64,000 bases of DNA from Variovorax sp. DXTD-1. GTDB taxonomy: Bacteria; Pseudomonadota; Gammaproteobacteria; Burkholderiales; Burkholderiaceae_C. The notes under the pieces were generated by a model. It worked only from the letters and a program-made list of their open reading frames with translations. It ran no database searches and was not told the origin of the DNA. Below, one piece after another: positions 43,749-63,976 of the stretch; the first letter of the stretch is position 1; the number at the start of each line of letters is the position of its first letter. Location of the stretch: the NCBI RefSeq assembly GCF_003984625.1, contig NZ_RWKH01000006.1:124001-188000 (forward strand). Direction: 5' to 3'. Made by a program: the position numbers and the translations under genes.

Positions 43749-43787
43749 GACAGGCCTTGTGGAGGTCGGGGGTGTGGAGCGTTCGGC

Positions 43788-44765: not shown

Positions 44766-44828
44766 ATGTTCTTTCGGTTGAAGGTTGAGAATTGAGATGT
44801 CGGAACAAGGCGTGCACGGCCTTGGCGC

Positions 44829-45491
44829 CTAGCCGGAACCCTTTGCGCCCGCGACCACAAGGAAGGTCTTCAGCAGGATCACGACGTCCTGGCGCAGGGA
44901 CAGCGTGGCGACGTAGTCGGCGTCCATGGCGGCCCTGCGCCGGTAGCTGACCTCGCTGCGCCCGCTCACCTGCCACAGGCCGGTGATGCCGGGCCGCACC
45001 GAGCAGTAGTGGCCCCAGTACGGGCCGTACAGGTCCTTCTGCGAGAACATGCAGGGGCGCGGGCCGACCATGCTCATGTCGCCCTTGAGCACGTTCCAGA
45101 ACTGCGGCAGCTCGTCGAGGCTGTACTTGCGCAGGAACGCGCCGAACGGCGTGATGCGCGGGTCATGCTCGAGCTTCTGGTACATGTCCCATTGCCGGCG
45201 CGCCTCTTCGTTCTCGCGCAGGTGGCGCGCCAGCACCGCGTCGGAGTCGGCCACCATCGAGCGGAACTTGTAGAAGCTGAAGACGCGCCCGTCCCGGCCG
45301 TAGCGCGGCTGCTTGTAGATCGCCGGGCCGCCGGAGGTCAGCCGCACGCCGAGCCACACCAGCGCGTAGACCCAGCCCAGGAAGAGGAAGAAGCAACTCG
45401 CCATCACGATGTCCATACCGCGCTTGGTGGCCATCAACAACCGCGAATTGCCCGCCCACTGGACGGGAGCATTGGATCGCAGGGTGTTCAC
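44829..45491 (-). CDS. Initiating sugar transferase (bacterial_transf/PGT type)
   Basis: A 220-aa protein, read from a GTG overlapping the wzc stop (GTGA). It consists of a membrane-anchored catalytic core: KRGMDIVMASCFFLFLGWVYALVWLG hydrophobic hairpin, then PAIYKQPRYGRDGRVFSFYKFRSMV and SLDELPQFWNVLKGDMSMVGPRP with the conserved DELPQ and VGPRP. It lacks the N-terminal CoA-binding domain of WcaJ, so it is a small monotopic phosphoglycosyltransferase. It should start the EPS repeat unit on undecaprenyl phosphate. Confidence 0.92.
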   Translation of the reverse strand: MNTLRSNAPVQWAGNSRLLMATKRGMDIVMASCFFLFLGWVYALVWLGVRLTSGGPAIYKQPRYGRDGRVFSFYKFRSMVADSDAVLARHLRENEEARRQWDMYQKLEHDPRITPFGAFLRKYSLDELPQFWNVLKGDMSMVGPRPCMFSQKDLYGPYWGHYCSVRPGITGLWQVSGRSEVSYRRRAAMDADYVATLSLRQDVVILLKTFLVVAGAKGSG

Positions 45492-47800: not shown

Positions 47801-47840
47801 GAGATCACCTTTTTGTGTTGCCTGGACGGGGGGAGAGGGT

Positions 47841-49031
47841 TCAGCGGCGGCTTGCCGTGCCACCGAGGTTCACGACCTGCGCGGCGGGAAGGATCAGGCT
47901 GATGACGCGGTTCCATCGCACCAGCGGCACGGGGTCGATGTAGACGACGTCACGCGCCTGCAGCGGAAAGCGGTCGGCCAGCGCCAGCGCCACCGGGTTC
48001 TTCGCGTCGAGGTGGTAGATCTCGGGCACCTCGCCGCGCGAGTTGCGCACCACGTAGATCTGGCCGGGCGAGGAGGTCAGCAGGTCGGGCCCGCCTGCAT
48101 CGCCCAGCGCCTCGTTCAGGCTCAGCCGGCCGTTGCGCATCAGCAGGGCCGACGGGTTGCGGATCTCGCCCATCACATACACGCGGCTGTCCTCGCGGGT
48201 GCCCACGTTCACGATGTCGCCGTTCTGCAGCGGAATGCGGCTCGCATCGAAACCGTAGCGCTGCAGCAGCGGCAGGTCGATGGTCACCGTGCGCTCGCCG
48301 CGCGTGAGGGTCACGCGCGAGCGGTCGGCGGCGGTGGTCACGCTGCCGGCGCGGTTGATCGCCTCGGCCAGCGTCATCGGCACGTCGGTGAAGATCTGCA
48401 GCCCCGGGGTGCGAACCTCGCCTTCCACGTACACGCGCCGGCTGCGGAACGACTGGATCCGAACGCTCACCAGCGGGTCTTTCACGAAGGGCGAAATGCG
48501 CCGCGTGATCAGGTCGGACGCGGCGCTTTCCGTCATGCCCTCGACCTTGGTGCGCCCGATGTAGGGAAAGCTGATCTCGCCCGATCCGTCGACGATGAAG
48601 CCTGGAGCCACGCTCACGCCCGTCGGGTCCGACTGCTGCGAGATCACGGCGCCCGCGTTGGGCATGAGTTCCGGATGCCGGTACACCACGATGCCGATCA
48701 CGTCGCCCGGGGCGATCGTGTACGCGGGGGCCTTGCCGAAGAGCTGCCGCACCTCCGCCGGCACGCCCTGCGGTTCCTGCGCGGCGCGGGTGCGGATCAG
48801 TTCGGGCGTGATGGGGACGATCTTCGGCTCGCCTTCCGCGTGGGAGCTGCTCCAGCCGCTGGTGTCCGGTGTCTTGAAACCGGGAATCCCGCAGCCGGCC
48901 AGGCACAGCGGCAGCACCAGCGCGACCACCGACCCGATCCGGCGTCGGACGCGCTCGCGGGCGGAAGCTTGGGCTGACGCGGGTGCAACGGGTGCGCCGC
49001 GCGAGGAACTGGCTGGGTCAAGGTGTGCCAT
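47841..49031 (-). CDS. wza: Outer-membrane polysaccharide export lipoprotein (Wza-like)
   Basis: A 396-aa lipoprotein. I chose the ATG at 49031 (MAHLDPASSS) because it has AAAGGACC about 7 nt upstream; the longer start is a weak alternative. The lipobox LCLAGC ends at Cys47. The poly-export domain has APAYTIAPGDVIGIVVYRHPELMPNAGAVI and the repeated SLBB-type folds GTREDSRVYVMGEIRNPSALL and RSRRVYVEGEVRTPGLQIF. It forms the outer-membrane exit channel for the EPS and pairs with Wzc, 40 bp downstream. Confidence 0.93.
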   Translation of the reverse strand: MAHLDPASSSRGAPVAPASAQASARERVRRRIGSVVALVLPLCLAGCGIPGFKTPDTSGWSSSHAEGEPKIVPITPELIRTRAAQEPQGVPAEVRQLFGKAPAYTIAPGDVIGIVVYRHPELMPNAGAVISQQSDPTGVSVAPGFIVDGSGEISFPYIGRTKVEGMTESAASDLITRRISPFVKDPLVSVRIQSFRSRRVYVEGEVRTPGLQIFTDVPMTLAEAINRAGSVTTAADRSRVTLTRGERTVTIDLPLLQRYGFDASRIPLQNGDIVNVGTREDSRVYVMGEIRNPSALLMRNGRLSLNEALGDAGGPDLLTSSPGQIYVVRNSRGEVPEIYHLDAKNPVALALADRFPLQARDVVYIDPVPLVRWNRVISLILPAAQVVNLGGTASRR

Positions 49032-49077
49032 GGGATGGTCCTTTGCTCGTGGGGGATCCTGAAGTCCTGGAATGGGT

Positions 49078-50004
49078 TCACTGCGGCGCGTAGGCGCCAT
49101 GCAATGGGGGCTCGGCAACGGCCGGCGTGGGGCTCACGGTGCGGCGCTCGGCGCCGGCGCCCGAGGCGCATGCGGTCACCCAGTCGCCGACCGACTGGAG
49201 AAAGAGCTGCTGCCCCTTTGCCGTGCAGAAGGTGTGGTCGAGCTCGCGCATGAACTCGTACTGGAGGGCCTGCGCGAAGGGCTCGCGCCGGAAGGGGCCG
49301 AGCTGGTCGCGGCCGCGGTCCGACACATGCAGCGAGCCCGAATACAGCAGCTGCACCGCCACCTTCCGTTCGACCAGGCGCTTCATGGCCGCGCCGAACC
49401 ACACGGCGTTGGCCTGCGGCGGCTTCCTTTCCGTGAAGAAACCGGGCAGCGCCTTTGTCGAATGGCTGCGCAAAAAGTGCCGCTGGAGCCAGCGCTTGGC
49501 CTTGCCCGCGAAGGCCGGGTGCGCGGGGGCTGCAATGGCGCGCCGCACGTTGCGCTCCCAGCGCGAGCGCCATTCCGGGAACGCGAAGCCGTCGAACAGC
49601 GAAATCGCCACCACGCGCGTGTCGGCTTCGGCCACGGCCATGGCGTGCTCCACGCCCGAGCACATGGCCACGATCACGAACTGCCGGATGCCCATCGTGT
49701 TCTCGAGCAGGTCCATGCCGGCCTGCAGGTCGTGCATGGCGCGGGTCTGCAGGTCGTGCGAGAAGTCGGACGCCTCGCTGTCCCCCACGCCGCCCAGGTC
49801 GAAGCGCAGGCTGCTCACGCCGCGCGCGGCCAGCACGTGCGCCAGCTTCACGTTGATGCGGCGCGGGCCGATGCGATGGTTGGCGCCCATGTTGAACATC
49901 AGGCATGCGGCGGTGGCCGGCACTTGCCGCGCGGGCATCGTGACGGTGCCGACCAGCGAGTTGCCGGCGCCGAACCGCACCGGCGTTTGCGTCATGTCAT
50001 TCAT
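49078..50004 (-). CDS. Alpha/beta hydrolase, exosortase A-associated hydrolase 1 type
   Basis: A 308-aa protein, start at MNDMTQTPVRFGAG overlapping the previous stop (an internal MTQ at 49995 is possible). Core motifs are AACLMFNMGANHRIGPRRINVKLAHVLAARGVSSLRFDLGGVGDSEASDF and VIVAMCSGVEHAMAVAEADTRVVAISLFDGFAFPEW. The usual GxSxG elbow is replaced by MCSGV, as in the hydrolase-1 group found beside exosortase-type EPS loci. It is coupled to hydrolase 2. No exosortase gene is in the window. Roles such as thioester or ester cleavage are inferred, not shown. Confidence 0.65.
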   Translation of the reverse strand: MNDMTQTPVRFGAGNSLVGTVTMPARQVPATAACLMFNMGANHRIGPRRINVKLAHVLAARGVSSLRFDLGGVGDSEASDFSHDLQTRAMHDLQAGMDLLENTMGIRQFVIVAMCSGVEHAMAVAEADTRVVAISLFDGFAFPEWRSRWERNVRRAIAAPAHPAFAGKAKRWLQRHFLRSHSTKALPGFFTERKPPQANAVWFGAAMKRLVERKVAVQLLYSGSLHVSDRGRDQLGPFRREPFAQALQYEFMRELDHTFCTAKGQQLFLQSVGDWVTACASGAGAERRTVSPTPAVAEPPLHGAYAPQ

Positions 50005-50815
50005 GAAGGGCCCCCTGCAGGCGGTTGAGCGCATCGGCCGGAACCATGGCGCTGTTGGGGTAGGGGTCGGACGTCCAGTCGAGCCGGTGCTGGAAGTACG
50101 CAAGGCGCACCGGCATGTAGCGCGACTGCTGCTCGGCCGCCCACTGCGCGGTTTCTTCGTCGTCGGGGCCTGTGAGCACCAGCGTGTCGTGCAGGGCCGT
50201 GAGCGGGAGCGATTCCGGCGTGAGCGCGGCCAGCTGCGTGCGCAGCGTGGGCGAAAGCGAGGTGCCCAGTGCCTCCTCGGGCATGGCGCCGGGCTCGCGC
50301 GAAAGGCTGCGGCGCCACGCCAGGTCGGGAATGCAGAAGGTCGTGTCGATGGCTGCCACATGCTCTTCGCGCAGCAGGCGGGCATAGCGCCGCCCGTCGA
50401 TCACCGGCTCCCACAGCACCAGCCGCGCCGGATCGCAGCGCCCGTTGCGCGCCGCCAGCACGGCCAGGGTGGCGCCGAGCCGCGCGCCCACCCAGACGAT
50501 GCGGCTTCCCGGTGCGCGCCGGCGCAGCTCTTCATGCGCCGAGCACAGGTCGCGCCGCCAGCCGTCGAGCTCGCCGTCTTCCTCGTCGCCCGGTGAATCG
50601 CCGGTGCCGTAGAAGTCGAAGCGCAAGGTTGCGATGCCCGAGCGCGCGAGGCGCTCGGCCAGCACCTTGAAGAAGCGGTGCGTGCGCATGCCCTCCTGCC
50701 CGAAAGGCGGGCAGATGAGCACCGCGGTGTTTCCGGGCAGTGCTTCCTCGGCAGCGTGGAACAGGCCGAAGATCTGCCGCGACGCGGGGCCGAACAGGAA
50801 TGGATAGGGGGTCAT
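49997..50815 (-). CDS. Alpha/beta hydrolase, exosortase A-associated hydrolase 2 type
   Basis: A 272-aa protein, start at MTPYPFLFGPASRQIFGLFH, which overlaps the PPTase stop as ATGA. It has the FLFGPASRQIFGLFHAAEE opening and ILICPPFGQEGMRTHRFFKVLAERLARSGIATLRFDFYGTGDSPGDEEDGELD typical of the hydrolase-2 group. The nucleophile position shows WVGARLGATLA, without the Ser of a standard elbow, so its activity is uncertain. It is coupled both to the PPTase before it and to hydrolase 1 after it, and may act on the assembly line product or on EPS intermediates. Confidence 0.68.
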   Translation of the reverse strand: MTPYPFLFGPASRQIFGLFHAAEEALPGNTAVLICPPFGQEGMRTHRFFKVLAERLARSGIATLRFDFYGTGDSPGDEEDGELDGWRRDLCSAHEELRRRAPGSRIVWVGARLGATLAVLAARNGRCDPARLVLWEPVIDGRRYARLLREEHVAAIDTTFCIPDLAWRRSLSREPGAMPEEALGTSLSPTLRTQLAALTPESLPLTALHDTLVLTGPDDEETAQWAAEQQSRYMPVRLAYFQHRLDWTSDPYPNSAMVPADALNRLQGALHE

Positions 50816-51528
50816 GCAAAGCTCTCCGTTGCCCCGCGCGGCATGCTGGCGCGGGTGTGGGTCTGCCGCCACTCGGCAATCGATCCCACGCTGTCCATGC
50901 GCGAAGGCGCGGGCTGCAGCACAAGCCACAGGATTCGGCCGGCAACCGGCACCTCGACGCTGCGGCAGTCCGCGTCCACACCCACTTCAAACCGCTCCGG
51001 AGGCACGATGAGTCCCAGCCCGATGGCCTTGAGGCAGGCTTCCTTGCGCGTCCAGCAGGTGAGAAAGGCCTGGTCGCGCTCGTTGGCCGGCAGTGCGCGC
51101 AGCGCTTCGTTCTCCAGCCGCGTGAAATGCGTTGCGGCAAGCGCCAATGCATCGGGCACCGCGCGAAGCTGCTCCACGTCCACGCCCAGCGGGCCGCGTT
51201 CGCCGATGGCGATCAGGCCCAGCCCCTGGCTGTGGCTCAGCGAGAAATGAACACGCGGCCAGCCCAGCAGCGAAGGCTTGCCGAAGGCGCTGTGCGTGAA
51301 GCGCAGCGCATCGGCGCGCGCGCCGGTCTGCTCGGCCAGTGCGTAGCGCAGCGCGGCGTGCGCCGCGACGTAGCGTTGCCGCTCCTGGGGAAAGCGGAAC
51401 TGTCCGGCGCGTGTGCGTTCCTCCTTGGAGAGGATCAGCGCGGCGCCGGGACCGGCGCAGTCATCCAGGTCGAAATACCGGCAAAGCGGTGCGTCGACAG
51501 AAGAAAGGGCGAAGGCCGCGTGTCCCAT
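50812..51528 (-). CDS. 4'-phosphopantetheinyl transferase (Sfp/HetI type)
   Basis: A 238-aa protein of the two-lobed Sfp group. It has RFPQERQRYVAAHAALRYAL in the N-terminal lobe and HFSLSHSQGLGLIAIG. The Mg-binding motif is PLGVDVEQL (Asp117), and the WTRKEACLKAIG motif (W159, K162, E163, K167) is the WxxKEAxxK signature. It loads the phosphopantetheine arm on carrier proteins; four are present in the two preceding synthases. It lies 5 bp after the NRPS stop, consistent with one operon. Confidence 0.95.
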   Translation of the reverse strand: MGHAAFALSSVDAPLCRYFDLDDCAGPGAALILSKEERTRAGQFRFPQERQRYVAAHAALRYALAEQTGARADALRFTHSAFGKPSLLGWPRVHFSLSHSQGLGLIAIGERGPLGVDVEQLRAVPDALALAATHFTRLENEALRALPANERDQAFLTCWTRKEACLKAIGLGLIVPPERFEVGVDADCRSVEVPVAGRILWLVLQPAPSRMDSVGSIAEWRQTHTRASMPRGATESFA

Positions 51529-51533
51529 GATCG

Positions 51534-54500
51534 TTACTCCTTGCGCAGCCAGCCGCCGAAGGTGCGGCTCAGCAGGCCTTCTCCGCGCGCACCGGCCTTG
51601 AGGTTGCCCATGGCAAGCGGCGCGAGTTCTGACAGGTCGGCGCTGTCATGCGCTTCGCGGGCGGAGGCGGCGATCTGGCCGAGGTTCTCGAACAGGTAGC
51701 GGCGCGACTGCACGCGGTAGCCCAGCGTCTGCTCGGTCTGCTGCAGCGCCCGCAGCACGAGCAGCGAATCCCCGCCGAGGTCGAAGAAGTTGTCGGTCGG
51801 GCGGATGTCGTTGACGTCGATGCCGATCACCGAGGCCCAGATCTGCGCGAGGCGGGCGTGCTCCGGGTTCAGGAGCGTTTCGTCCGCCTTCGGGGCCGCA
51901 GCCGTGCCGTTGACCGGTGCCGTGGCCGTGGCCTTGAGCGGATCTACCGCGGCGAGCCTGCGCAGGTAGACGGCGCTGGGCGAACCTTCTTCGGTGGAGA
52001 GTTCGGCCAGCGTGGCTTCGGGATGCTCGGCGGCCCGTTGCAGCAACTCCAGGTAGCGGTCGCGCAGGTGCGCCCCGGTTTCGCGCAGGTAGATGTCGGC
52101 GTTGTAGTTCAGCGCGCCCTCCAGCCCGTGCGGCTTGTCCATCAGCCACATGCCGATGTCGTCGGTGGCGCCGTGCTGCATCAGGTGCAGCTGGCGGGTT
52201 TGCAGGCTGCCCAGGCGCCGTGCGCGGTCGCGCGCATCCTGGAACGAGAACATCGTCTGGTAAGGGCCGACCGCGCGGATGCGGGCGCCCAGGGCGGGCT
52301 CCGCCATGAGCCGCTCGAACGGCACCTGCTGGTAGTTCATGATCGACAGCAGCTCGCGCTTCACGTAGCGCATGAACTCGGCGAGCGTCTGGTCCAGGCC
52401 GACCTGGAGCGACACCGGCAGCACGTTGTTGAAGAAGCCCATCACGTCTTCGGTTTCGGGCTGCTGGCGCCCGCGCACCGGGTTGGCGATGACGATCGAC
52501 TCCGAGCCGATGACCCGGCTCATGGTGAGCGCATAGATGCCGAAGGTCAGCATGCTCAGCGTCACGTCCATGTCGCGGGCAACCTTGCGCAGCTGCTGCG
52601 TGGTCGAAAGGTCGACACGGATCCACTGCGCGCCGCCCTGGCCGCTCTTGCCCGAGCGCCGCGGCATGTCGGTGTTGGGCAGGCGCGGCATCGGCGCGTC
52701 GGCGAAGCGCTTCAGCCAGAAGTCCAGCTGCTCCTGGAAGCCGGGCTCGTTCATCCAGTTGGCCTGCCATTCGGCATAGTCGCCGTGCGTGGTGGCAAGC
52801 GCGGGCAGGCCGTGCGGGCGACCGCGTTCCGCCGCGTCGTAGATGGCGGAGAGTTCGCGCTGGAGCAGGTCGAAGGACCAGCCGTCCCAGATCAGGTGGT
52901 GGGGCACGAACACGAACACATGCTCATGCGCATCGAGCTGGAACACCGCCGCATGCATCATGGGCGCACGGTGAATGTCGATCGGCCGGTCGGCAAGCTC
53001 CTGCATGCGATCGGCCAGCTCGGCTTCGCGCTGGTCGGCCGGCAGGTTGCGCAGGTCGATGAAAGGCAGCTCGAAGTCCACCGCTTCCGACATCGCCTGC
53101 ACCGGCTGCCCGGTGTGCGGGTCGGTCGCCATGCGGGTGCGCAGGGCGGGCTGGCGGCGAATGATTTCCCTGAACGCGGCCTCGAAGCGCTGCATATCGA
53201 AGTTGCCGGTCAGGCGCTGGGCGGCGGGTGCGTTGTAGACCGAGCGGCCGGGGTGCAGGTCCTCCATGAACCGGATGCGTTCCTGCGACGGCGTCAGGGG
53301 CGCCGTCTTGCGATTGATGCGGCAGGGCAGCGGCGCCTGGGCACGGGAGCCCGCGCTTTGCAGGCCCTCGACAACCGCGGCCAGCTTTTCGGCCGTGGGC
53401 GCTTCGAACAGCGAGCGCAGCGGCAGCGTGATCTTGAATTCGCGGCTCAGCAGCGTTGTCAGGCGCGAGGCCAGCAGCGAATGGCCGCCCATGGCGAAGA
53501 AGTCGTCCCGCATGTCGAGGCCGGGCAGGCTCAGCACCTTTTCCATGGTCTCGAGCACCTTGCGTTCGCAATCGGAGCGGGGGGCCGCGCCGCGCCGCGC
53601 CTCGTCGCGCGAGACGGCCTGCGGCGGGGGCAGCGAAACCCGGTCGACCTTGCCGTTGGGCAGCGTGGGCAGCGTCTTCAGCGCCACCACGTGCTGCGGC
53701 AGCATGAAGGCGGGCAGGTGCTCGCGCAGGTGGGCCATCAGCACGTCCTGGTCGAAATCGACACCGGGCGTGAGCGCAAGGTAGGCCACCAGGCGCACGT
53801 CGCCGGGGCTGTCTTCGCGTGCCACGACCACGCAGCGCGAAACGCCGGCCACCTCGCGGCAGCGCGCCTCGATCTCGCCCGGCTCGATGCGGTAGCCGCG
53901 CACCTTGAGCTGGAAGTCGAGCCGGCCCAGGTGCTGGATCAGCCCGTCGTTGCGCCAGCGGCCGCGGTCGCCGGTGCGGTACAGCCGCTTGGCCGTACCG
54001 AAGACGCGGGCGGTGACGAAGCGCTCCGCCGTGAGCTCGGGCCGGTCGATGTAGCCTTGCGAGAGGCCGTCGCCGGCAATGCAGATTTCTCCGGGCACGC
54101 CGATGGGGCAGGGCTGCAGGTCGGCGTCGAGAATCCATATCTCGGTGTTGTCCACCGGGTGGCCGATGGACACGCCGCGCGACGCAACGGCCTTGGGGTC
54201 GACCAGCCATGCGGTCGAATACACGGTGGTCTCGGTCGGGCCATAGCCGTTCCAGAGCTCCGAAAGGCGCTCGCACAGCGCCAGCGCAAAGCTCGGGCGC
54301 AGCGGCTCGCCGCCGATCCAGCCACGAAAGCCCGGTGCGCCCGGCCATTGGGCGTCGAGCAGCAGCTGCCACATGCCGGGCGTGGCCTGCAGGAAGTTGA
54401 TCTGCTCTTCTTGCAGCAGCTTGCTCAGGCGCACGCCGTCCATGGCCAGCTCGCGCTGCACCATCACGATCTCGGCGCCCACGGCCAGCGGCAGCAGCAG

Positions 54501-56543
54501 GTCGGGCACCGCCATGTCGAACGACAGCGTGGTCACCGCGGCAATGCGGTCGCTTGCGTTCATGCCGGACTTCCTCAGCATCCACTGCAGCAGGTTGGCC
54601 ACGGACGCATGCCGCGCGGACACGCCCTTGGGCAGGCCCGTGGAGCCGGAGGTGTAGATCACATAGGCGGGATCGTCCGGGCCGGCGTCGTCTTCGCTCG
54701 CGGGCAGGGGATCGCCGGAGGCCTGCTGCCAGGCGCTGTCGCGGTCGATCTCGAACACGTGTTCGGCCGCGCCGTCGCGCCAGCTGCGCGGCGCCGCGGC
54801 AATGTCAGAAGAGGTCAGCAGCAGGCTGAGGCCGGCATCCTTGGCGTAGTGGTCGAGCCGCGCCTGCGGAAACGCGGGGTCGAGCGGCACATAGGCGGCG
54901 CCCGCCTTCAGCACAGCGACCATTGCAAGCACCATCTCGAGGCTGCGCTCCAGGCACAGGCCCACATGCTGGCCGCGGCGCACGCCGCGCTCGCGCAATG
55001 CACGCGCAAGCCGGTTGGACTGCGCATCGAGTTCGGCATAGGTGAAGACTCGCGCGCCGTCGCGCACTGCGGGGCGATCAGGCTGCAGCGGCACGCGCGC
55101 CAGGAAGCGTGCGAGCGCATGCGGCGCGCCTTCCAACGCGGTGGGCGGCGGCTGCAGGGCAATCAGCTCTTGGGCACCTTCCGGCGAGAGCACCTCGAGC
55201 CGGCCGACGGTTTCGCCCGGGTTGCGCGCGGCCGAGCGGAGCACGCACTCGAACATGTCGAGCCAGCGCTGGACGCTGGCTTCGTCGAACAGGTCGGCGT
55301 TGTATTGCGCCTCGATCTGCAGGCCGCCGTCGAGCGGGCGCAGGTTCAGGAAGAGCTCGAAGTTCTCGTACTGGCGCGGGATGGTGTCCTGCGTGACATC
55401 AAGGCCGGTGAAGGCCTGCGTGCTGCTGGCCACGTCGGGGTCGACGTTGAAGACCACGCTCACCAGCGGCAGGCGGCTCGGGTCGCGCTGCAGCGCAAGC
55501 TTGCCCAGCAGCGCGCCGTAGGTGAGCGCCTGGTGGTCGAAAGCGTCGAGCACGGCCGTGCTGCATTCGCCCAGCAACGCGTCGAAGCGCATCTGGCCGT
55601 GCGCGGCAAGGCGCAGCGGCAGCAGGTTGACGCAGTGGCCCACCAGGTCGGGCATGTCGCGCGCGATCTGGCCCGACGCCGGAATTCCGACCACGATGTC
55701 GTCCTGCCCGGTGAGGCGGTGCAGCGTGGCGACGAAGCCGGTGAGCAGGCCCGCGAACAGGCTGGCGCCGGTCTTCGCGCTCATCGAACGCAGCGCGGTC
55801 ACCAGGCGGCGGTCGAGCAACCGCTCGGTGCGGCGCGAGCTGAAGGTGCGCGTGGCGGGGCGCAGGTGGTCAAGCGGCAGCTCGATCACGGGCAGGGTTC
55901 CGCCGGGAAAGCGCTCCAGCCAGTAGTCCACATGCACCTGCATGTCGGGATGCGCGGCTTCAGCGGCTTCTTCCGCCGCAAAGCTTGCATAGGTTGGCGC
56001 GGGCTTGAGCCGCAGGCCGTCGCCGGTTTGCTCGGCATACAGATGACCGAGCTGCTCGGTAATGACCACCCACGACCAGCCGTCGCAGACCACGTGGTGC
56101 GCCGACATGACGAGTTCATGCTCGGCATCGCCAAGCCGGTACAGCACGGCGCGGAACAGCGGACCTTGCTCCAGCGAGAAAGGCGTGCACACCGCGGTGT
56201 CGTGGGCCGTCTTCAGCGCCTGTGCCCGGGCTTCGGGCGAGAGGCCGCTCAGGTCCTTTTGCTCCATCGGGTCTTCGGGCGGCTGGCCGACCAGCATGCA
56301 GGTGCCGTCAGGCGAAACCGTGGCCCGCAGCGACTGGTGGCGCGCGACGAGGCGTGCCACGGCACGCGCCATGGCATCGCGGTCGAGCGGCCCGCGAAAG
56401 CGCAGCAGCACTGATTCGTTGTACGAGAGCGAGGCTTCGGTGCTCATCGTTGCGCCGAGCCAGACTTCGCGCTGCGATTCAGTCGTGGGGATGACGCATT
56501 CGATAAGGCCCGCGGCGGCGGGGGGGCGAAGAACGGCGTTCAT
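51534..56543 (-). CDS. Non-ribosomal peptide synthetase, C-A-T-C-T, no thioesterase
   Basis: A 1669-aa NRPS; the ATG overlaps the stop of the PKS/NRPS gene (ATGA). Domains in order: C1 (about 15-460, HHVVCDG at 149-155 intact); A (about 480-970, core TSGSTGLPKG at 631-640, Asp676 in LSFDMAVPDL, GYGPTETT, catalytic Lys965 in LPNGKVDR); T (GGHSLL, Ser1022); C2 (about 1082-1500, HHLIWDG at 1215-1221 intact); T2 (GGDSLLVL, Ser about 1593). No A domain precedes the final T and no TE, reductase or terminal C-like release domain follows. By position the A-domain pocket residues read D-M-P-Q-W-G-G-V-Y-K, which I cannot translate to a substrate with confidence. It should take the product of the upstream synthase, add one residue, and then act through a second C domain that needs an acceptor in trans or releases the chain. 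Confidence 0.9.
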   Translation of the reverse strand: MNAVLRPPAAAGLIECVIPTTESQREVWLGATMSTEASLSYNESVLLRFRGPLDRDAMARAVARLVARHQSLRATVSPDGTCMLVGQPPEDPMEQKDLSGLSPEARAQALKTAHDTAVCTPFSLEQGPLFRAVLYRLGDAEHELVMSAHHVVCDGWSWVVITEQLGHLYAEQTGDGLRLKPAPTYASFAAEEAAEAAHPDMQVHVDYWLERFPGGTLPVIELPLDHLRPATRTFSSRRTERLLDRRLVTALRSMSAKTGASLFAGLLTGFVATLHRLTGQDDIVVGIPASGQIARDMPDLVGHCVNLLPLRLAAHGQMRFDALLGECSTAVLDAFDHQALTYGALLGKLALQRDPSRLPLVSVVFNVDPDVASSTQAFTGLDVTQDTIPRQYENFELFLNLRPLDGGLQIEAQYNADLFDEASVQRWLDMFECVLRSAARNPGETVGRLEVLSPEGAQELIALQPPPTALEGAPHALARFLARVPLQPDRPAVRDGARVFTYAELDAQSNRLARALRERGVRRGQHVGLCLERSLEMVLAMVAVLKAGAAYVPLDPAFPQARLDHYAKDAGLSLLLTSSDIAAAPRSWRDGAAEHVFEIDRDSAWQQASGDPLPASEDDAGPDDPAYVIYTSGSTGLPKGVSARHASVANLLQWMLRKSGMNASDRIAAVTTLSFDMAVPDLLLPLAVGAEIVMVQRELAMDGVRLSKLLQEEQINFLQATPGMWQLLLDAQWPGAPGFRGWIGGEPLRPSFALALCERLSELWNGYGPTETTVYSTAWLVDPKAVASRGVSIGHPVDNTEIWILDADLQPCPIGVPGEICIAGDGLSQGYIDRPELTAERFVTARVFGTAKRLYRTGDRGRWRNDGLIQHLGRLDFQLKVRGYRIEPGEIEARCREVAGVSRCVVVAREDSPGDVRLVAYLALTPGVDFDQDVLMAHLREHLPAFMLPQHVVALKTLPTLPNGKVDRVSLPPPQAVSRDEARRGAAPRSDCERKVLETMEKVLSLPGLDMRDDFFAMGGHSLLASRLTTLLSREFKITLPLRSLFEAPTAEKLAAVVEGLQSAGSRAQAPLPCRINRKTAPLTPSQERIRFMEDLHPGRSVYNAPAAQRLTGNFDMQRFEAAFREIIRRQPALRTRMATDPHTGQPVQAMSEAVDFELPFIDLRNLPADQREAELADRMQELADRPIDIHRAPMMHAAVFQLDAHEHVFVFVPHHLIWDGWSFDLLQRELSAIYDAAERGRPHGLPALATTHGDYAEWQANWMNEPGFQEQLDFWLKRFADAPMPRLPNTDMPRRSGKSGQGGAQWIRVDLSTTQQLRKVARDMDVTLSMLTFGIYALTMSRVIGSESIVIANPVRGRQQPETEDVMGFFNNVLPVSLQVGLDQTLAEFMRYVKRELLSIMNYQQVPFERLMAEPALGARIRAVGPYQTMFSFQDARDRARRLGSLQTRQLHLMQHGATDDIGMWLMDKPHGLEGALNYNADIYLRETGAHLRDRYLELLQRAAEHPEATLAELSTEEGSPSAVYLRRLAAVDPLKATATAPVNGTAAAPKADETLLNPEHARLAQIWASVIGIDVNDIRPTDNFFDLGGDSLLVLRALQQTEQTLGYRVQSRRYLFENLGQIAASAREAHDSADLSELAPLAMGNLKAGARGEGLLSRTFGGWLRKE

Positions 56544-59500
56544 GCTGTGGCCTTTCCATTGATCAGATGGGTGGGGGAAGAGGTGGTGTCCGGCACGTAC
56601 CAGAAGGGCTGGCCGTCGATGTCGCGGGCGAGAACCGAGCCGTCGTCTTCCTCGGCCTTGCGGTAGTCGAAGCCGGTGATGACCGTTGCGCGGCGCGGCA
56701 GGAATCCGGATTCCTGCATCTCGGCAACGGACTCCTTGAATGCGCGCTGGATCGTCGCGATGTCCTCGGCGCTGTGCGCGCTCGTGAGAAAGCACGGGAA
56801 GTTGTCCAGGATGTGCACGCCGCGGCTGCGCATCATTGCGAACAGCAGGTCTTGCAGCGGATGGTCTTCGAGCCAGCTCACGCGCCAGAGCGAAGCGAAG
56901 TGCCTGATGGCGATGGGCGCGCCCACCTCGGCGCACCAGGCGGTGAGCTCCTCGGCCATGGTGCCGGTGCTGGTGCTGAGCCCGATCTGCAGCGCGGGGC
57001 CGGCTTCCTTCAGATAGGTGAGCGATGCCTTGGCCGCGGCCAGCGCGAGCGGGTGCCGCACGAAGGTGCCGGCAAAGTAGGTCACGCCCACGCCGGGAAT
57101 CGAGTCGTCGCCGTATTGCCAGGCGCCGCCGTCGAGCGCATCCATGAACTCGCGCTTGCCGGCAATCACGCCGACCGGGAAGCCGCCGCCGATCACCTTG
57201 CCGTAGGTGGCAAGGTCGGCGCGTATGCCGAACAGTTCCTGCGCGCCGCCCAGGCCGACGCGAAAGCCCGTGATGACCTCGTCGAAGATCAGGCAACTGC
57301 CGCTCTGCGCGGTAATGGCACGCACCTCTTCAAGGAACTCGCGAGGCTGGAAGTCGGGGCGGCGGCTTTGCACCGGCTCCGCCAGCACGGCGGCAAGGTC
57401 GTCGGCATTCTCGCGGATGAAGGCCAGCGCCTCGGGCGTGCCGTAGTCCAGCACGCGGATGTCGCCGAACATGCCGCTCATCACGCCGGGCGCGGCCGAC
57501 AGGCCCTTGCCGCCCTTGCCGGCGCGAACCAGCACTTCGTCGAAGGTGCCGTGGTAGGAGCCCGTGAACACCACCACGGTGCTGCGCCCGGTGACCGTGC
57601 GTGCGATGCGCAGCGCCGCCATGACCGCTTCGGAGCCGGTGTTGCAAAGCGCCGCGCGGTCGCTGCCCGTGAGCTCGCAGATGAGCGCCGTGACTTCGGC
57701 GGCCAGCGGATGCTGCGGGCCGATCTCGTAGCCCTCGTCGAGCTGCCGGCGCACGGCTTCCTGCACGAAGTCGGGCTGCCAGCCGAACATGTTCATGCCG
57801 AAGCCGTTGAGCGCATCGACGTATTCGTTGCCGTCCAGGTCCCAGAGCTTCGACCCCTTGGAGCGCTCGATGACGATCTGGTAGGTGATCTCCTTGGTGA
57901 TCGGGCGGAAGCCGTTGACCACGCGCGGGTCGGCCATGTGGGGGCGGTTGGCTTCGGTGAACTGCTTGCTCTTTTGCGTGCGTGCCACGTAGCGGCGCAT
58001 GAAGGCCGCGAGCCGCGCTTTCTGCCGGCCGCTCGGCTCGGCGGTGCGCTGCGTGTGGATGCGTGCAATGGCGCCGAAAGCCTTTGTCACGTCGTAGCGC
58101 ACCGGCTCCTTGGCTGCGGCGGGCTCGTCGGCATTGGGCAGCGCGGGCGAGGCCGGCATTGCCTGTGCCGCTGTTGCCTGCATGGCGGGCTGGGCCGCCT
58201 GTTGCACCGTCTGGGTAGCTGCTTCCTGGGACAGGTTCGCCCCGGCGCCCGACAGCAGCGCGAGCTGCTGACGCATCAATTCCATTTGCTGCGTAACCAG
58301 TTGTACAAGCGGTGTGGCGCCGATTCCGCTGGCTGGCAGCGGCGTGAAAACGGGCGACGGATGCACCGTGGCCGGCACGGTGATCGCCGTTGCCGCAGGC
58401 GCGAAAACGGCTGTGGACACCGCAGCGGCTACCGGAGCGATTGCCGGAGCAGCAGCCACTGCAGCTGCGGGTTCGGGCGGCAGGCTTTCCCGCAGGAATG
58501 CGCCGAGCGCATCGAGGCTGCGGTAGTTCTCCATGAGCTGGCGAAAGCTCAGGTTTACCTTGAAGCGTTTCTTGATCTGCGTGGCGACCTGCGTCAGCGT
58601 GAGCGAGTCCAGCCCGAGTTCGCTGAAGGCGGCGTTGCCTTCCGCCTGGGCCATGTCGATGCCGGAGATGTCCTCGAACAAGGACCGCAACCGCGCATCG
58701 AGCGAGGCGTCCGACGAAGCGGATGTGGAAGAAACAGGTAGCGGGGGCGCTGCAGCAACTGTCACGGTCGTCTCCAAAACGGGGGGTGGTACGAAAAGGG
58801 CGGGCATGGGCGGCGCGGCTTCCGGCGAAATTGCCGGCTTTGCCGCGGGGGCCGCGATGTCGACCCAGAAACGCTTGCGCTCGAACGGATAGGTGGGCAG
58901 GCGAACCCGCTGCGCGCCGGTGCGCACCGCGAGCCGCGACAACTCGACATCGGCGCCGCATGTCCAAAGGCGCGCCAGCGCCAGGCGCAGGGTGCGGGCC
59001 TCGTCGGCCGGCTCGCCCTGCAGCAGCGGCATCACTTCGCCGGCGCCGTGCTGGCGCACCAGCGTGGCAAGTGCATTGCGGGGGCCGACCTCGACGAAGA
59101 GCGGCCGCGCCGTCTGCGCCATGGCGCTGCGCACGGCCGGCGAGAAGTGCACCGTGCCGCGCAGGTGGCGAGCCCAATAGGCGGCGCTGGTGGCCTCGGC
59201 GTCTTCGAGCAGACGGCCGGTGAGCGTCGAATAGATCGGAATCGTCGGCGGATGCAGCGCCACTTCACTGACCAGCGCTTCGAAGGGCGCCACTGCGCCG
59301 TCCATCATTGCGCTGTGGAATGCGTGCGATGTCTGCAGCGGGCGGCTCGGAATGTCTTCTTCCTGCAGCGAAGCCTGCAGCGCCGCAATGGCTTCGAAGG
59401 GGCCGGCAGCCACGCAAGCGGTCGGGCCGTTGTCCGCGGCAAGAGATAGCGAATCGCCGAGCCTGGCCGTGAGCTGTTCGGCACCCAGGCGCACCGACAG

Positions 59501-62500
59501 CATTGCCCCCGCGGGCTGGGCCTGCATGAGCGCGCCGCGGCGCGCGACGAGCCGTGCGGCATCTTCGAGCCGCATCACGCCCGCGAGCACCGCGGCCACG
59601 AACTCACCCACGCTGTGGCCGATCAGCGCATGCGGCCGCGCACCCAGAGAGAGCAGCCTGCGTGCCAGCGCGTACTCCAGCGCAAACATGGCGGGTTGCG
59701 TCACGGCGGTGGGCGCGAGCGCATCGGCTTCGCCTTCGAACATGCGCTCGCGCAGGTCGAAATCCAGCGCGCTGCCGAAGGCCTTCACGCAAGCATCGAA
59801 GGCGGCGGCGAAGACGGGGTCGTTCGCATGCAGGTTCTTGCCCATGCCGGCGTACTGCGCGCCCTGGCCGGGGAACATCAGCACCAGTTGGGGCGCGCGC
59901 GAATCGATGTGGCCGCTGACGCGCCATGTGCTGTCGCTGCCGCGCAGCGCGGCAATAGCTTCGGCCGCGTCGCTGGCCACCACGGCGCGGCGGAAGGCGT
60001 GAGCCTTGCGGCCGACGCCCAGCGTGTAGGCGACATCGGCCAGCGGCAGCCCGGGCGTTGCATGGAGGTGCGCCGCCAGCTGCTCCGCGGCCACTGCGAG
60101 TGCGGCCTCCGAGCGGGCTGAAAGCGGCAGCACCTGCGGACCGACTGCGATTGGCGAAACGGGGCGCGGGGGCGCCTCTTCGACGATGACATGCGCGTTG
60201 GTGCCGCCCACGCCGAAGGAGCTGACCCCTGCGCGGCGCGGCTCGGCGGCGCGCGGCCACGGCTGAAGGCTGGGCGAGACGTAGAAGGGCGTGCGCGAAA
60301 AGTCGATGGACGGGTTCGGCGCGGTGAAGTGCGCCGTCGGCGGAATCACTTCGTGGTGCAGCGAAAGCGCTGCCTTGATGAGCCCGGCGGCGCCTGCTGC
60401 TGTGACCATGTGGCCCACGTTGCTCTTGAGGGAGCCGAGCGCGCAGAAGCCCAGCGCATCGGTGTGTTCGCCATAAGCACAGGTCAGTGCCTCGACTTCG
60501 ATCGGGTCGCCCATCGGCGTGGCCGTGCCGTGCGCCTCCACGTAGGAGATGCTGCGCGCCTCCACATGGGCCGCCGCCAGCGCGGCGCGGATCACGGCGG
60601 CCTGGCCGTCCACGCTGGGCGCGGTAAAGCTTGCCTTGGCACCGCCGTCGTTGTTGACAGCGGCGCTGCGCAGCACCGCGTAGATGGTGTCGCCGTCGGC
60701 CTGCGCGTCCGCCAGGCGCTTCAGCAAAACCACCGCGGCGCCGTCGCTGAACACGGTGCCCTGGGCCTGCGCATCGAAGCTGCGCGTGCGGCCGTCGGGA
60801 GAGAGCATCGAGCCCTCCTGGTAGAGGTAGCCGCTGCGCGTGGGGCAGGTAACGGACGCGCCGCCCGCCAGCGCCATGTAGCACTGGCCCGTGCGCAGCG
60901 CATGAAAGGCATGGGCCACTGCCACCAGCGATGTCGAGCAGGCGGTGTGCACGCTCACCGCGGGGCCTGTGAGGTTGAGCCGGTTGGCTACCCGCGTCGT
61001 GATGTAGTCCTTCTCGTTGGCCAGCATCACCTGGAACTCGCCCACCGCCTCGATGAGGTCGGGCCGCGTGCTGACGTGGCGCTGGAAGTAGCTGGCGTTG
61101 TACATGCCGGCATACACGCCGACGGGGCCGGGGGCGGCGTCGGGCACATAGCCGGCGCGCTCCAGGCACTCCCAGCAGATCTCGAGGAACACGCGCTGCT
61201 GCGGGTCCATCAGTGCCGCTTCCTTCGGGCCGATGCCGAAGAAGGCGGCGTCGAAGTTCTCGATGCCTTCGATCACGCCGCGGGCGCGCACATAGGCCGG
61301 GTCCGTGCGCAAGGCTTCGGAAACGCCGGCGTCGAGCGTCTCGTCGTCGAAGAAGCTGATAGTGTCGCGGCCGGCAACCAGGTTTTCCCAGAACTGCTCG
61401 ACATCCGCAGCGCCCGGAAAGCGGCCCGCGGTGGCGATCAGCGCCACGGCGTCTTGCAAGTCGGACGTGTTGGCCGACGCCTGGGGTGCGCGTGACCGAT
61501 CAATCGCAGGCGCCGCATCACCGGCGGGAGCCAGCTGGGCCGCCATTGCGGCCGGCGTCGGATAGCGGAAGAAGAGATTGGTCGAAAGCGGCTTTGCGCT
61601 GTCCCGCTGCAGATCGGCCAGCACCTGGAGCACGCGCATCGAATCGCCGCCGAGGTCGAAGAAGTTGTCGTTGCGGCCGACCTTGGCGATGCGCAGCGCG
61701 CGCGCAAAGGCTTCGCACACGCGCTGCTCGGTGGCGCTGCGCGGTTCTTCGAACGGCTGCGCGAGGTCGGGCCGCTCGCCGGCCGGTTCGGGCAGCGCCT
61801 TGCGGTCGAGCTTGCCGTTGGAGGTGACCGGCAACTGATCGAGCCAGACCTGCGCGGAGGGCACCAAGGCCGCGGGCAGGCGGGCCGCAAGGTGCGCGCG
61901 CAGCGCCTCCCACGAGAGCTTTTCTTGCGAACGCGCGACGAGGTAGGCGACAAGGCTCAGCTGCCCGTCGGCATCGGGCCGCGCGACCACGGCGCAGCTC
62001 TTCACCGCCGGATGGGCGAGGATGGCCGCTTCCACCTCGCCGGTCTCGATGCGGTGGCCGTGAATCTTGACTTGTCCGTCGCGCCGGCCGATGAACTCGA
62101 TGGTGCCGTCGGGCAGCCAGCGCGCGAGGTCGCCCGTGCGGTAGAGGCGCTCGCCCGGTGCGCCGAAGGGGTCGGGCACGAAGCGTTCTTCCGTCAGCGC
62201 GGGTTGCCCCAGGTAGCCGCGCGCCAGTCCGTGTCCGCCGATGCAGAGCTCGCCCACCAAGCCCGTGGGAAGCAGGGCCATCGTGGGGCTCAGCACGCGC
62301 AGCACCGTGTCGTTGATGGGCCGCCCGAGCGGCACCGAGCGCAGGTCGGCGGGCAGCGCCGCGGGAATGCGGTAGGTGGCCGCGAAAGTCGTGCACTCGG
62401 TCGGCCCGTAGCCGTTGCTCAGCGCGAGCTGCGGAAGCGCGGCCAATGCGCGCCGCACATGCGGTACCGAAAGGGCTTCGCCGCCGGTGAGCAGGTGCCG

Positions 62501-63976
62501 CAGGCCCGAGAGATGGGCCGGGTCGTCGTCGATCACCGCGTTGAACAGCGCCGCCGTGAGCCAGGCGGTGTGCACGTTGTGGCGTGCAATGGTGCGGGCG
62601 AGGCCGGCGCCCGTGGGCACGCGCTCGTCGTGAATGACGCAGCAGCCGCCGTTGAGCAGCGGGCCCCAGACTTCGAGCGTGGACGCATCGAAGCCGAGCG
62701 GCGCGGCATGCAGCATCGCGCGGCCGGGAGCCAGTTCGACATAGCCCGCATCGACCACGAGGCGAAGGATTGCGCGGTGGCAGATCTCGATGCCCTTGGG
62801 CGTGCCGGTCGAGCCCGAGGTGTACATCACGTACGCCACCGATTCGCCGTCGATGGCGGGGGCTTTCCACGAAGCAGGCGCACTGCCTTCAGCGCCGTCA
62901 GGCACTTCTGCCGGCTCGTCGAGCACCAGCACGGCCATCGATTCGGGCGCGAGATGGCGATGCACGGGCGCGGCGATGGTCAGCCGCGCGTTTGCTTCGG
63001 CCAGCATGTAGGCAATCCGCTCGGCCGGAAAGTCCGTCGGCACCGGCACATAGGCCGCACCTGCCTTGAGAACGCCCAACTGGGTCACCACGGCCGCCAT
63101 CGAGCGGTCGAGCAGCAGCCCGACGGCATCGCCTGCGTGCACGCCCAGGTGCTGGAGGTGCCGGGCAAGCCGTTCGGAGCGGCGTTCGAGCTCGCTGTAG
63201 CTCATTTGCGCATCGCCTTCCGCAAGGGCCGGCGCATCGGGCGTGGCGGCGGCCTGGCGGCTGAACATTTGCGCCACATTGAGTTGGCGGTTCAGCGGGG
63301 CGGGCGGCGTGTTCCACGCAACGAGCTGTTGCTCGCGATCAGCCGCGGGCAGGGTGCGGATGTCGCCCAGCGGTGCGTCGGGGCGGCAGAGCAGGTCGGC
63401 GGCCGTGTCGGCGATTGCGGCCAGCAATTGCTCGATGGATGCGGCGTCCAGAAGACCTGCTGCGGCGTCGGCGTGAAGGCGCGGCGCGTCGGATGCGGCG
63501 TTCAGCCAGAGGTGAAGGGGTGCCTGGAGTGCGGGGGCGACGGTCTCGGCGCGGAGCCAGAGAAAGCTGGGCGAGGACTCGGGCGTGTCTGTGCCGAATG
63601 CTTCAGCGGCCTGGCGCCGCTTCTGGTCGAGCGTGGCCAGCCATGCGCTTGCCGGCTGTGCGGGATCGAACGCCATGGCAAGCGCGGCGTGCCTTGCGGC
63701 TGCTTGCGAGGGGCGTGCCGACGCTTCGTGCAGAACCGCTTGCTGGGCGCCGAGCCAGCGCGCCTGCAACAGGAGCCAGGCTGCTGCAAATGGGGTGTCC
63801 GGCAATTGACCGGCGGCTGCAGCCCATTGGCTCCAATGCCGCATATTTTCCGGTGCGAGTGCGATTGAACTGACAATTCGTTCTGTCGTTGCAGAGCTAG
63901 GCAGCGAAACGAACAGGTCGCCCAGGGAAGGCGGGGGGACTTCGAATTGCACCGAAAAAACGGAATGAAGTTTCAT
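56540..63976 (-). CDS. Hybrid NRPS-PKS-aminotransferase megasynthase (A-T-KS-AT-ACP-AMT)
   Basis: A 2478-aa hybrid. Order and landmarks: a degenerate C-like N-terminus of about 220 aa without HHxxxDG; A domain at about 235-725 (TSGSTGTPKG, Asp430 in LGFDASTLEV, GYGPTECTT, Lys722); T (GGDSM, Ser779); KS at about 840-1265 (TACSTSL Cys1013, EAHGT His1149, NVGHM His1189); AT at about 1360-1700 (GHSVG Ser1455, HAFH 1551-1554, malonyl-type); ACP (GLDSL Ser1791); an Ala/Pro/Gln-rich linker at about 1830-1960; a class III PLP aminotransferase at about 1990-2440 (LWDLDGNEYVDALNGFGMNMFGW, TYGKVIGGG Lys2260). No KR, DH, ER or MT is seen. The expected chemistry: an amino acid is loaded, extended by malonyl-CoA to a beta-keto gamma-amino acyl chain and transaminated at the beta carbon. 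The A-domain pocket residues read D-A-L-W-L-G-G-T-F-K. Confidence 0.9.
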   Translation of the reverse strand: MKLHSVFSVQFEVPPPSLGDLFVSLPSSATTERIVSSIALAPENMRHWSQWAAAAGQLPDTPFAAAWLLLQARWLGAQQAVLHEASARPSQAAARHAALAMAFDPAQPASAWLATLDQKRRQAAEAFGTDTPESSPSFLWLRAETVAPALQAPLHLWLNAASDAPRLHADAAAGLLDAASIEQLLAAIADTAADLLCRPDAPLGDIRTLPAADREQQLVAWNTPPAPLNRQLNVAQMFSRQAAATPDAPALAEGDAQMSYSELERRSERLARHLQHLGVHAGDAVGLLLDRSMAAVVTQLGVLKAGAAYVPVPTDFPAERIAYMLAEANARLTIAAPVHRHLAPESMAVLVLDEPAEVPDGAEGSAPASWKAPAIDGESVAYVMYTSGSTGTPKGIEICHRAILRLVVDAGYVELAPGRAMLHAAPLGFDASTLEVWGPLLNGGCCVIHDERVPTGAGLARTIARHNVHTAWLTAALFNAVIDDDPAHLSGLRHLLTGGEALSVPHVRRALAALPQLALSNGYGPTECTTFAATYRIPAALPADLRSVPLGRPINDTVLRVLSPTMALLPTGLVGELCIGGHGLARGYLGQPALTEERFVPDPFGAPGERLYRTGDLARWLPDGTIEFIGRRDGQVKIHGHRIETGEVEAAILAHPAVKSCAVVARPDADGQLSLVAYLVARSQEKLSWEALRAHLAARLPAALVPSAQVWLDQLPVTSNGKLDRKALPEPAGERPDLAQPFEEPRSATEQRVCEAFARALRIAKVGRNDNFFDLGGDSMRVLQVLADLQRDSAKPLSTNLFFRYPTPAAMAAQLAPAGDAAPAIDRSRAPQASANTSDLQDAVALIATAGRFPGAADVEQFWENLVAGRDTISFFDDETLDAGVSEALRTDPAYVRARGVIEGIENFDAAFFGIGPKEAALMDPQQRVFLEICWECLERAGYVPDAAPGPVGVYAGMYNASYFQRHVSTRPDLIEAVGEFQVMLANEKDYITTRVANRLNLTGPAVSVHTACSTSLVAVAHAFHALRTGQCYMALAGGASVTCPTRSGYLYQEGSMLSPDGRTRSFDAQAQGTVFSDGAAVVLLKRLADAQADGDTIYAVLRSAAVNNDGGAKASFTAPSVDGQAAVIRAALAAAHVEARSISYVEAHGTATPMGDPIEVEALTCAYGEHTDALGFCALGSLKSNVGHMVTAAGAAGLIKAALSLHHEVIPPTAHFTAPNPSIDFSRTPFYVSPSLQPWPRAAEPRRAGVSSFGVGGTNAHVIVEEAPPRPVSPIAVGPQVLPLSARSEAALAVAAEQLAAHLHATPGLPLADVAYTLGVGRKAHAFRRAVVASDAAEAIAALRGSDSTWRVSGHIDSRAPQLVLMFPGQGAQYAGMGKNLHANDPVFAAAFDACVKAFGSALDFDLRERMFEGEADALAPTAVTQPAMFALEYALARRLLSLGARPHALIGHSVGEFVAAVLAGVMRLEDAARLVARRGALMQAQPAGAMLSVRLGAEQLTARLGDSLSLAADNGPTACVAAGPFEAIAALQASLQEEDIPSRPLQTSHAFHSAMMDGAVAPFEALVSEVALHPPTIPIYSTLTGRLLEDAEATSAAYWARHLRGTVHFSPAVRSAMAQTARPLFVEVGPRNALATLVRQHGAGEVMPLLQGEPADEARTLRLALARLWTCGADVELSRLAVRTGAQRVRLPTYPFERKRFWVDIAAPAAKPAISPEAAPPMPALFVPPPVLETTVTVAAAPPLPVSSTSASSDASLDARLRSLFEDISGIDMAQAEGNAAFSELGLDSLTLTQVATQIKKRFKVNLSFRQLMENYRSLDALGAFLRESLPPEPAAAVAAAPAIAPVAAAVSTAVFAPAATAITVPATVHPSPVFTPLPASGIGATPLVQLVTQQMELMRQQLALLSGAGANLSQEAATQTVQQAAQPAMQATAAQAMPASPALPNADEPAAAKEPVRYDVTKAFGAIARIHTQRTAEPSGRQKARLAAFMRRYVARTQKSKQFTEANRPHMADPRVVNGFRPITKEITYQIVIERSKGSKLWDLDGNEYVDALNGFGMNMFGWQPDFVQEAVRRQLDEGYEIGPQHPLAAEVTALICELTGSDRAALCNTGSEAVMAALRIARTVTGRSTVVVFTGSYHGTFDEVLVRAGKGGKGLSAAPGVMSGMFGDIRVLDYGTPEALAFIRENADDLAAVLAEPVQSRRPDFQPREFLEEVRAITAQSGSCLIFDEVITGFRVGLGGAQELFGIRADLATYGKVIGGGFPVGVIAGKREFMDALDGGAWQYGDDSIPGVGVTYFAGTFVRHPLALAAAKASLTYLKEAGPALQIGLSTSTGTMAEELTAWCAEVGAPIAIRHFASLWRVSWLEDHPLQDLLFAMMRSRGVHILDNFPCFLTSAHSAEDIATIQRAFKESVAEMQESGFLPRRATVITGFDYRKAEEDDGSVLARDIDGQPFWYVPDTTSSPTHLINGKATA

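Follow-up and report, generated by a model that had tools for sequence, protein, structure and literature searches.

The 64,000-nucleotide stretch of Variovorax sp. DXTD-1 DNA analyzed here (the window; its contig measures 227 kb and its genome 5.25 Mb) encodes a hybrid nonribosomal peptide synthetase-polyketide synthase (NRPS-PKS) assembly line whose closest homologues are found in Variovorax. The line heads a gene run that continues, on the same strand, into genes for exopolysaccharide (EPS). There is a slightly better than even chance that: the line makes a valine-derived diamino-acyl-glycine unit via beta-amination; this unit is off-loaded by a pair of hydrolases; and it is used for exopolysaccharide. 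The initial annotation of this DNA delimited the two synthases correctly and ended with them. The gene run extends far past both, and its continuation into EPS genes, the omission of which left that picture incomplete, bears on the line's likely role.

All window features given below lie on the minus strand. Protein 1 (56540..63976; 2478 amino acids, ATG start) is a hybrid NRPS-PKS of the domain order A-T-KS-AT-ACP-AMT (adenylation, carrier, ketosynthase, acyltransferase, acyl carrier protein and aminotransferase), and protein 2 (51534..56543; ATG start) is an NRPS of the order condensation (C)-A-T-C-T with no thioesterase (TE). After an N-terminal region of ~235 amino acids without a Pfam match, protein 1 matches AMP-binding (238-589), AMP-binding_C (647-722), ketoacyl-synt (842-1091 and 1099-1217), Acyl_transf_1 (1367-1675), two PP-binding stretches and Aminotran_3 (2033-2347). 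Pfam boundaries, code extraction and inspection of residues place: the first A domain, A1, at residues 238-722 (61811..63265), with the code DALWLGGTFK; the KS at 842-1217 (60326..61453); the AT at 1367-1675 (58952..59878); and the ACP at 1762-1828 (58493..58693). The aminotransferase domain spans about residues 2000-2430 (56687..57979), and structure-chain scores make the MycA AMT its closest solved relative.

The window protein keeps the KS Cys-His-His, the AT Ser and HAFH motif, the serine of each carrier domain and the AMT Lys. Among the homologues covering each site, the KS Cys and both His residues are each present in 79/79, the AT Ser, the HAFH motif and the T Ser each in 78/78, the ACP Ser in 76/76 and the AMT Lys in 68/68. 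Ketoreductase, dehydratase and enoylreductase domains are absent from the 10 Pfam families reported for protein 1. Pfam thus confirms the two reading frames and the domain order first proposed; the amino-acid-binding Asp lies at exactly the predicted residue 430, and the HAFH motif, the lack of reductive families and the Aminotran_3 match with its Lys bear out a malonyl-type module without reductive domains and a class III aminotransferase in the line.

Protein 2 was read from the ATG at 56543, so that the start of its gene and the stop of protein 1 share a 4-base overlap; the listed TTG at 57296 is too far upstream. Its Pfam matches are two Condensation stretches, AMP-binding and two PP-binding stretches, and both C domains carry HHxxxDG. 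The second A domain, A2 (53649..55088), has the code DMPQWGGVYK, and the second C domain (51993..53312; HHLIWDG) is followed by a terminal T without an A domain of its own. This T was missed by a single-sequence T profile and is seen by Pfam and its Ser motif. Among 79 homologue rows, protein 2 ends in: C-A-T-TE in 14, 12 of these from Bacteroidota; C-A-T-C-A-T in 12, mostly from Rhodanobacteraceae; C-A-T-C, with or without a detected terminal T, in the window and 25 rows (Variovorax, Thiomonas, a few Rhodanobacteraceae and others); and C-A-T-C-T-TE in 3. Twelve rows represent protein 1 (A-T only) with no protein 2 in reach, and 9 further rows are partial or odd (C, C-A, C-A-T, A-T-C-A).

The two synthase genes are followed by: a 4'-phosphopantetheinyl transferase (PPTase; 50812..51528); the alpha/beta-hydrolases hyd2 (49997..50815) and hyd1 (49078..49995, with an alternative ATG at 50004); a Wza-type polysaccharide export lipoprotein (47841..49031, with its ATG at 49031 inferred); a Wzc-type chain-length/tyrosine autokinase (45488..47800, start inferred); a WbaP-like initiating sugar-phosphate transferase (PF02397; 44829..45491, start inferred); and further polysaccharide genes. 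The hydrolases hyd2 and hyd1 are distant relatives of TIGR03101 and TIGR03100, respectively. With the likeliest starts, successive gaps from protein 1 to the WbaP-like gene are -4, 5, -4, 1 (or -8), 46, 40 and -4 bp. Two weak tests of 43500-57500 saw no sigma-70-like promoter and 6 terminator-like sites, versus 7.0 in shuffled sequence; this is weak evidence for a single transcript. The window's genome has two PF02397 genes, one of them inside this run. The run contains the Wzx/Wzy EPS set of PF02563 export, chain-length kinase and PF02397 initiating transferase, and its flippase-like and polymerase-like genes match below cut-off only.

The hydrolase pair is catalytically unusual. At the nucleophile place hyd1 carries Cys112-Ser113, with Asp253-His254 near its end, and hyd2 carries an Arg (GARLG) in place of the nucleophile; each feature is invariant over 23 aligned sequences. 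The predicted structures of hyd1 (pLDDT 82) and hyd2 (pLDDT 89) give general alpha/beta-hydrolase matches only and do not indicate an acceptor. A Cys-type hyd1 with a catalytically odd partner fits an enzyme pair suited to acyl transfer. As the window line has no TE, the chain would leave through this pair, with hyd1 as the acyltransferase.

XrtA-type matches of hyd1, hyd2 and several neighbors had suggested an exosortase system as a label for the window. This label was rejected, since the scores fall short of the cut-offs and the neighborhood lacks an exosortase; the single exosortase match in the genome lies on another contig (C44), not beside the line. Exosortase matches occur in 16 of the 38 genomes of the context set described below, and lie within 45 kb of the line in two of them, G012 (L038; C5:1416293, 36 kb off) and G021 (L060; C102:42038, 26 kb off). 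In a few genomes, the line is thus near a full exosortase-type EPS locus. No exosortase was found in the 14 Rhodanobacteraceae and Lysobacteraceae genomes searched.

Relatives of protein 1 are encoded in at least 593 stretches of public genomes, which argues that the assembly line is not a product of chance. The best 79 distinct loci were kept. They come from Variovorax and other Burkholderiales, Rhodanobacteraceae, Lysobacteraceae, Thiomonas and Bacteroidota, with lone members in Cyanobacteriota, Verrucomicrobiota and Sphingomonadaceae. A homologue tree took 69 of 80 rows, the others being too short, and the placement of L060, L080 and L073, which have long branches, is unsure. Gene context was analyzed in 38 genomes holding 38 of the 79 best loci, a set hand-picked for genus spread rather than drawn at random. 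Genomes were scored for an EPS hallmark, meaning a PF02397 or PF02563 match that shares the line's contig and lies no more than 45 kb away.

Such a hallmark is present in 26 of the 38 genomes. PF02397 is near the line in 23, PF02563 in 20 and both in 17, where chance would give 1.6 and 1.7. In 13 of the 38, the two hallmarks flank the line on opposite sides, placing it inside a polysaccharide cluster. As a control, the NRPS loci that these genomes hold besides the line were taken from the C-domain matches listed at E 1e-50 or better; 2 of these 33 loci are near either hallmark, versus 26/38 for the line (Fisher value 3e-8, which ignores shared ancestry), and of these two, the one in G023 is separated from the line by 31 kb. 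The listed matches include no other C domain for 22 of the 38 genomes, although at least one of these (G032, with three matches) has one more. An association with EPS genes is seen repeatedly, in differing gene orders, across Comamonadaceae, Rhodanobacteraceae, Lysobacteraceae and Bacteroidota. In Dyella jiangningensis (L071), the line lies amid an EpsB-type transferase, a polysaccharide deacetylase, an O-antigen-ligase-like gene and glycosyltransferases; in Thiomonas (L027), export and Wzz genes are upstream; and in Mucilaginibacter (L087), a PF02397 transferase, an OEP gene, a weakly Wzc-like gene and a Wzy_C gene are downstream.

Within Variovorax, the line is near-core: an AMT match is present in 92 of 101 genomes (one of them partial) and in 79 of the 87 better genomes. 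In 46 of these genomes AMT identity is 84% or more, and Wza is 8.0-9.1 kb away in 42. In the four unlinked genomes, which have assemblies of 290-630 contigs, Wza is listed on a different contig in three and is not listed in G138.

Because the unit is part of the EPS gene run in the window's clade, its product is most likely for the polymer, one possibility being that it would decorate the polymer as an N-acyl group with positive charge. For the window's clade and the Rhodanobacteraceae, polymer use is the best explanation. A number of observations weigh against this proposal or its parts. Neither hallmark is within 45 kb of the line in 12 of the 38 genomes, some of these on short contigs. In a second Variovorax clade, 0 of 45 genomes are linked to Wza among the matches listed (Wza is listed for 35 of the 45). 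Locus L020 of that clade is a compact unit of phosphatase, protein 1, protein 2, PPTase, hyd2 and hyd1 whose line, PPTase and hydrolases stand alone between housekeeping genes and an RND pump, with the PF02397 gene on another contig. Twelve Bacteroidota homologues end in a TE. The window A2 code is not the textbook Gly code and, as a variant of the Gly-like pattern, is less certain. The hydrolases score below cut-off (hyd1 against TIGR03100, 55.3 bits, cut-off 168.45; hyd2 against TIGR03101, 98.9 bits, cut-off 202.75), and an enzyme attaching the peptide to a sugar was not identified in this analysis. Finally, free N-acyl amino acids are made beside exosortase/EPS genes, and no attachment is claimed in the consulted passages of that report (PMC7293339).

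The principal alternative is a free secreted small molecule: a linear or cyclised diamino-acyl-Gly peptide that may serve biofilms and be co-controlled with EPS while not entering the polymer. The stand-alone unit of the second Variovorax clade, the genomes without a nearby hallmark and the 14 lines ending in C-A-T-TE all favor such a product, the TE ending of the Bacteroidota homologues suiting release of a free compound. A precedent comes from N-acyl amino acid synthases that lie beside PEP-CTERM/exosortase and EPS genes, where the free compound acts on biofilms (PMC7293339, citing Craig et al. 2011). Stand-alone units, TE-ending lines and these known compounds keep a free product plausible, with a probability clearly short of even. 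Against it, the EPS link recurs in four groups with differing gene orders, is far rarer for the other NRPS loci in these genomes, and in the window involves genes packed as one run. Recurrent packed linkage counts against chance neighbors, and less against a co-regulated free product. If the product is for the polymer, a simple reconciliation with the unlinked genomes is that it may there serve a surface polymer whose genes lie elsewhere. A more specific form of the polymer proposal is possible but distinctly tentative: a cationic diamino-acyl-Gly unit, made by a line that is near-core in Variovorax and spans several phyla, would be covalently attached by the Cys-type hydrolase pair to the exopolysaccharide or to its sugar- or lipid-linked precursor.

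Whichever its destination, the unit is likely built by the following chemistry. First, the protein 1 T domain would be loaded with an alpha-amino acid, predicted to be valine from the code DALWLGGTFK, which we take to be Val-type (the meanings of Val, Pro, Thr, Gly and Gln codes are assumed throughout). The A1 code is readable in 77 of the 79 loci, with the Asp235-equivalent in 77/77; it is Val-type, as in the window, in 51, Pro-type in 10, exactly Thr-type in 2 and other in 14. Next, the KS would add one malonyl unit, HAFH being presumably the motif of a malonyl-type AT, to give a gamma-amino-beta-keto thioester. Finally, the MycA-type AMT would convert the keto group to an amine using an outside donor, forming 3,4-diamino-5-methylhexanoyl-ACP. 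The MycA AMT aminates a beta-keto thioester with Gln as the amino donor, as described in PMC3870968. The window AMT can be aligned to that enzyme over 426 residues and, judged by score, is nearer to it than to glutamate-1-semialdehyde aminomutase (GSAM): it scores 412.9 bits against the mycosubtilin synthase A AMT (6kfm) versus 194.7 bits against the best GSAM chain (6w80).

The AMT could alternatively act as a GSAM, moving the gamma amine to the beta position to give a beta-amino-gamma-keto acid. It does match GSAM (HemL) models, at scores below their cut-offs (PRK00062, 259 bits, cut-off 398; TIGR00713, 232 bits, cut-off 527), but the MycA AMT is by far closer. In a proline-loaded line, the gamma nitrogen is in the ring, and a transaminase cannot pass a ring nitrogen on. 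Given the Pro-type codes of 10/77 loci, the mechanism cannot in general be an internal transfer of the GSAM kind, whereas an outside amino donor would suit every member; the aminomutase reading is very improbable. Loading of A1 with a fatty or other non-amino acid, which would make the line an ordinary iturin/puwainaphycin relative as its mycosubtilin-synthase type of AMT might suggest, is very improbable given the Asp235-equivalent in every readable locus, Val-, Pro- or Thr-type codes in 63/77, and the amino-acid adenylation model TIGR01733 (409 bits, cut-off 317) as the only above-cut-off protein 1 match among the 25 NCBIfam matches listed.

The initial annotation had named beforehand a fatty-acid or non-amino A domain and an AMT siding with GSAM as outcomes that would count against alpha-amino acid loading and a beta,gamma-diamino intermediate; neither occurred, the latter as judged by score. 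The A1 Asp and Val-type code, the malonyl-type AT and the MycA-like AMT all agree with that intermediate, which is supported as the best reading of the line. The sequence supports the predicted diamino-acyl chemistry well.

Protein 2 would then join the diamino acyl unit to glycine, in line with the earlier expectation that it adds at least one amino acid. The family majority of A2 codes is DILQ-type, which we take to be Gly-like, and a Gly-like code is found in 55 of 63 readable homologues. The product inferred from these codes is 3,4-diamino-5-methylhexanoyl-glycine. The second C domain would extend the chain by a further unit carried on the terminal T. This unit is most likely glycine activated by the same A domain, because the Rhodanobacteraceae homologues keep a separate Gly-type A at this place; the product thus probably carries a second glycine. 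Among the 14 rows with a third A domain, the code is Gly-type in 11 (L023, L029 and L079 did not align); Variovorax rows in this listing are second A domains re-detected in long frames.

Parts of this system have known counterparts. Like the MycA/ItuA synthases of mycosubtilin and iturin, protein 1 has a malonyl-type KS-AT-ACP followed directly by a class III AMT. Unlike them, its starter would be an alpha-amino acid on an A-T pair rather than a fatty acid, its AMT ends the protein, and the line is short and Gly-containing. The layout has been in print since 2013: Table 2 of PMC3870968 catalogues Pedobacter heparinus C6XWU5, an orphan of the same layout (A-CP-KS-AT-CP-PLP1) with the predicted product Nrp-Mal-Gly-Pk. 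That protein is a single entry of a PLP-domain survey, listed without a product, and the word polysaccharide is absent from the survey's main text (PMC3870968). No paper tying such a line to EPS was found in the open-licence PMC literature, as judged by titles and the starts of abstracts. The stieleriacine N-acyl amino acid synthases likewise yield an amino-acid-derived small molecule and have genes that recur beside EPS genes, but each is a single, exosortase-associated enzyme making N-acyl tyrosines, with neither NRPS-PKS nor AMT (PMC7293339). Exosortase-A (XrtA) EPS systems likewise have polysaccharide genes accompanied by a pair resembling hyd1 and hyd2; they differ in that the window hydrolases fall below both cut-offs and no exosortase is beside the window cluster. 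Wzx/Wzy EPS clusters share Wza, Wzc, a PF02397 transferase, glycosyltransferases and flippase- and polymerase-like genes, and differ in that here the NRPS-PKS line, PPTase and hydrolases precede these within the same run.

Beyond the WbaP-like gene, the run continues with: an NAD-dependent sugar epimerase/dehydratase (43788..44765); a weakly matching Wzy-like repeat-unit polymerase (42420..43748; TIGR04370, 19.7 bits, cut-off 40); a GT4-type glycosyltransferase (41313..42410); two proteins of unknown family without Pfam matches (40375..41316, secreted-looking with a signal-peptide-like start, and 39402..40334); a Wzx-like flippase (38108..39373, start inferred; Polysacc_synt, 23 bits, cut-off 28.2); a second glycosyltransferase (36831..38111); a LuxR-type response regulator (35931..36719); and a ManC-type mannose-1-phosphate guanylyltransferase/isomerase (34386..35894).

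Several further observations concern related loci. At L011:1685-3375, just past the position of the window's right end, two methyltransferase genes diverge from protein 1 on the other strand; one belongs to the TIGR04325 family (215 bits, cut-off 80), and both could belong to the same pathway. At L020:8987-9622, a histidine phosphatase gene directly precedes protein 1, with relatives in six loci of the second Variovorax clade and near kin. L047, a metagenome bin titled Bordetella parapertussis, has a line with a Thr-type code and a TE; its title is probably misassigned. Spirosoma luteum (G030, L072) has three AMT matches of 56-59% identity, indicating that the AMT family can multiply. G122 (47%) and G024 (40%) have a more distant AMT match besides the standard one, and the sole match in G054 is partial (56% over part); these perhaps belong to other aminating lines. 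The window's genome has a second NRPS locus (G000:C23:190030-210476) with six C-domain matches, on a contig without either PF02397 gene.

If the polymer proposal is true, the line joins modular peptide/polyketide synthesis with polysaccharide assembly, two fields that seldom meet. It would also open charged slime layers that bear amino acids, in bacteria associated with soil and plants, to genetic study, add a further use to those of beta-aminating domains, and give a Cys/Arg pair of alpha/beta-hydrolases a role. If the product is instead free, the presence of the AMT across nearly all Variovorax genomes, and the 22 of 38 genomes with no other listed C domain, would still indicate that the line serves a core function rather than making a sporadic antibiotic.

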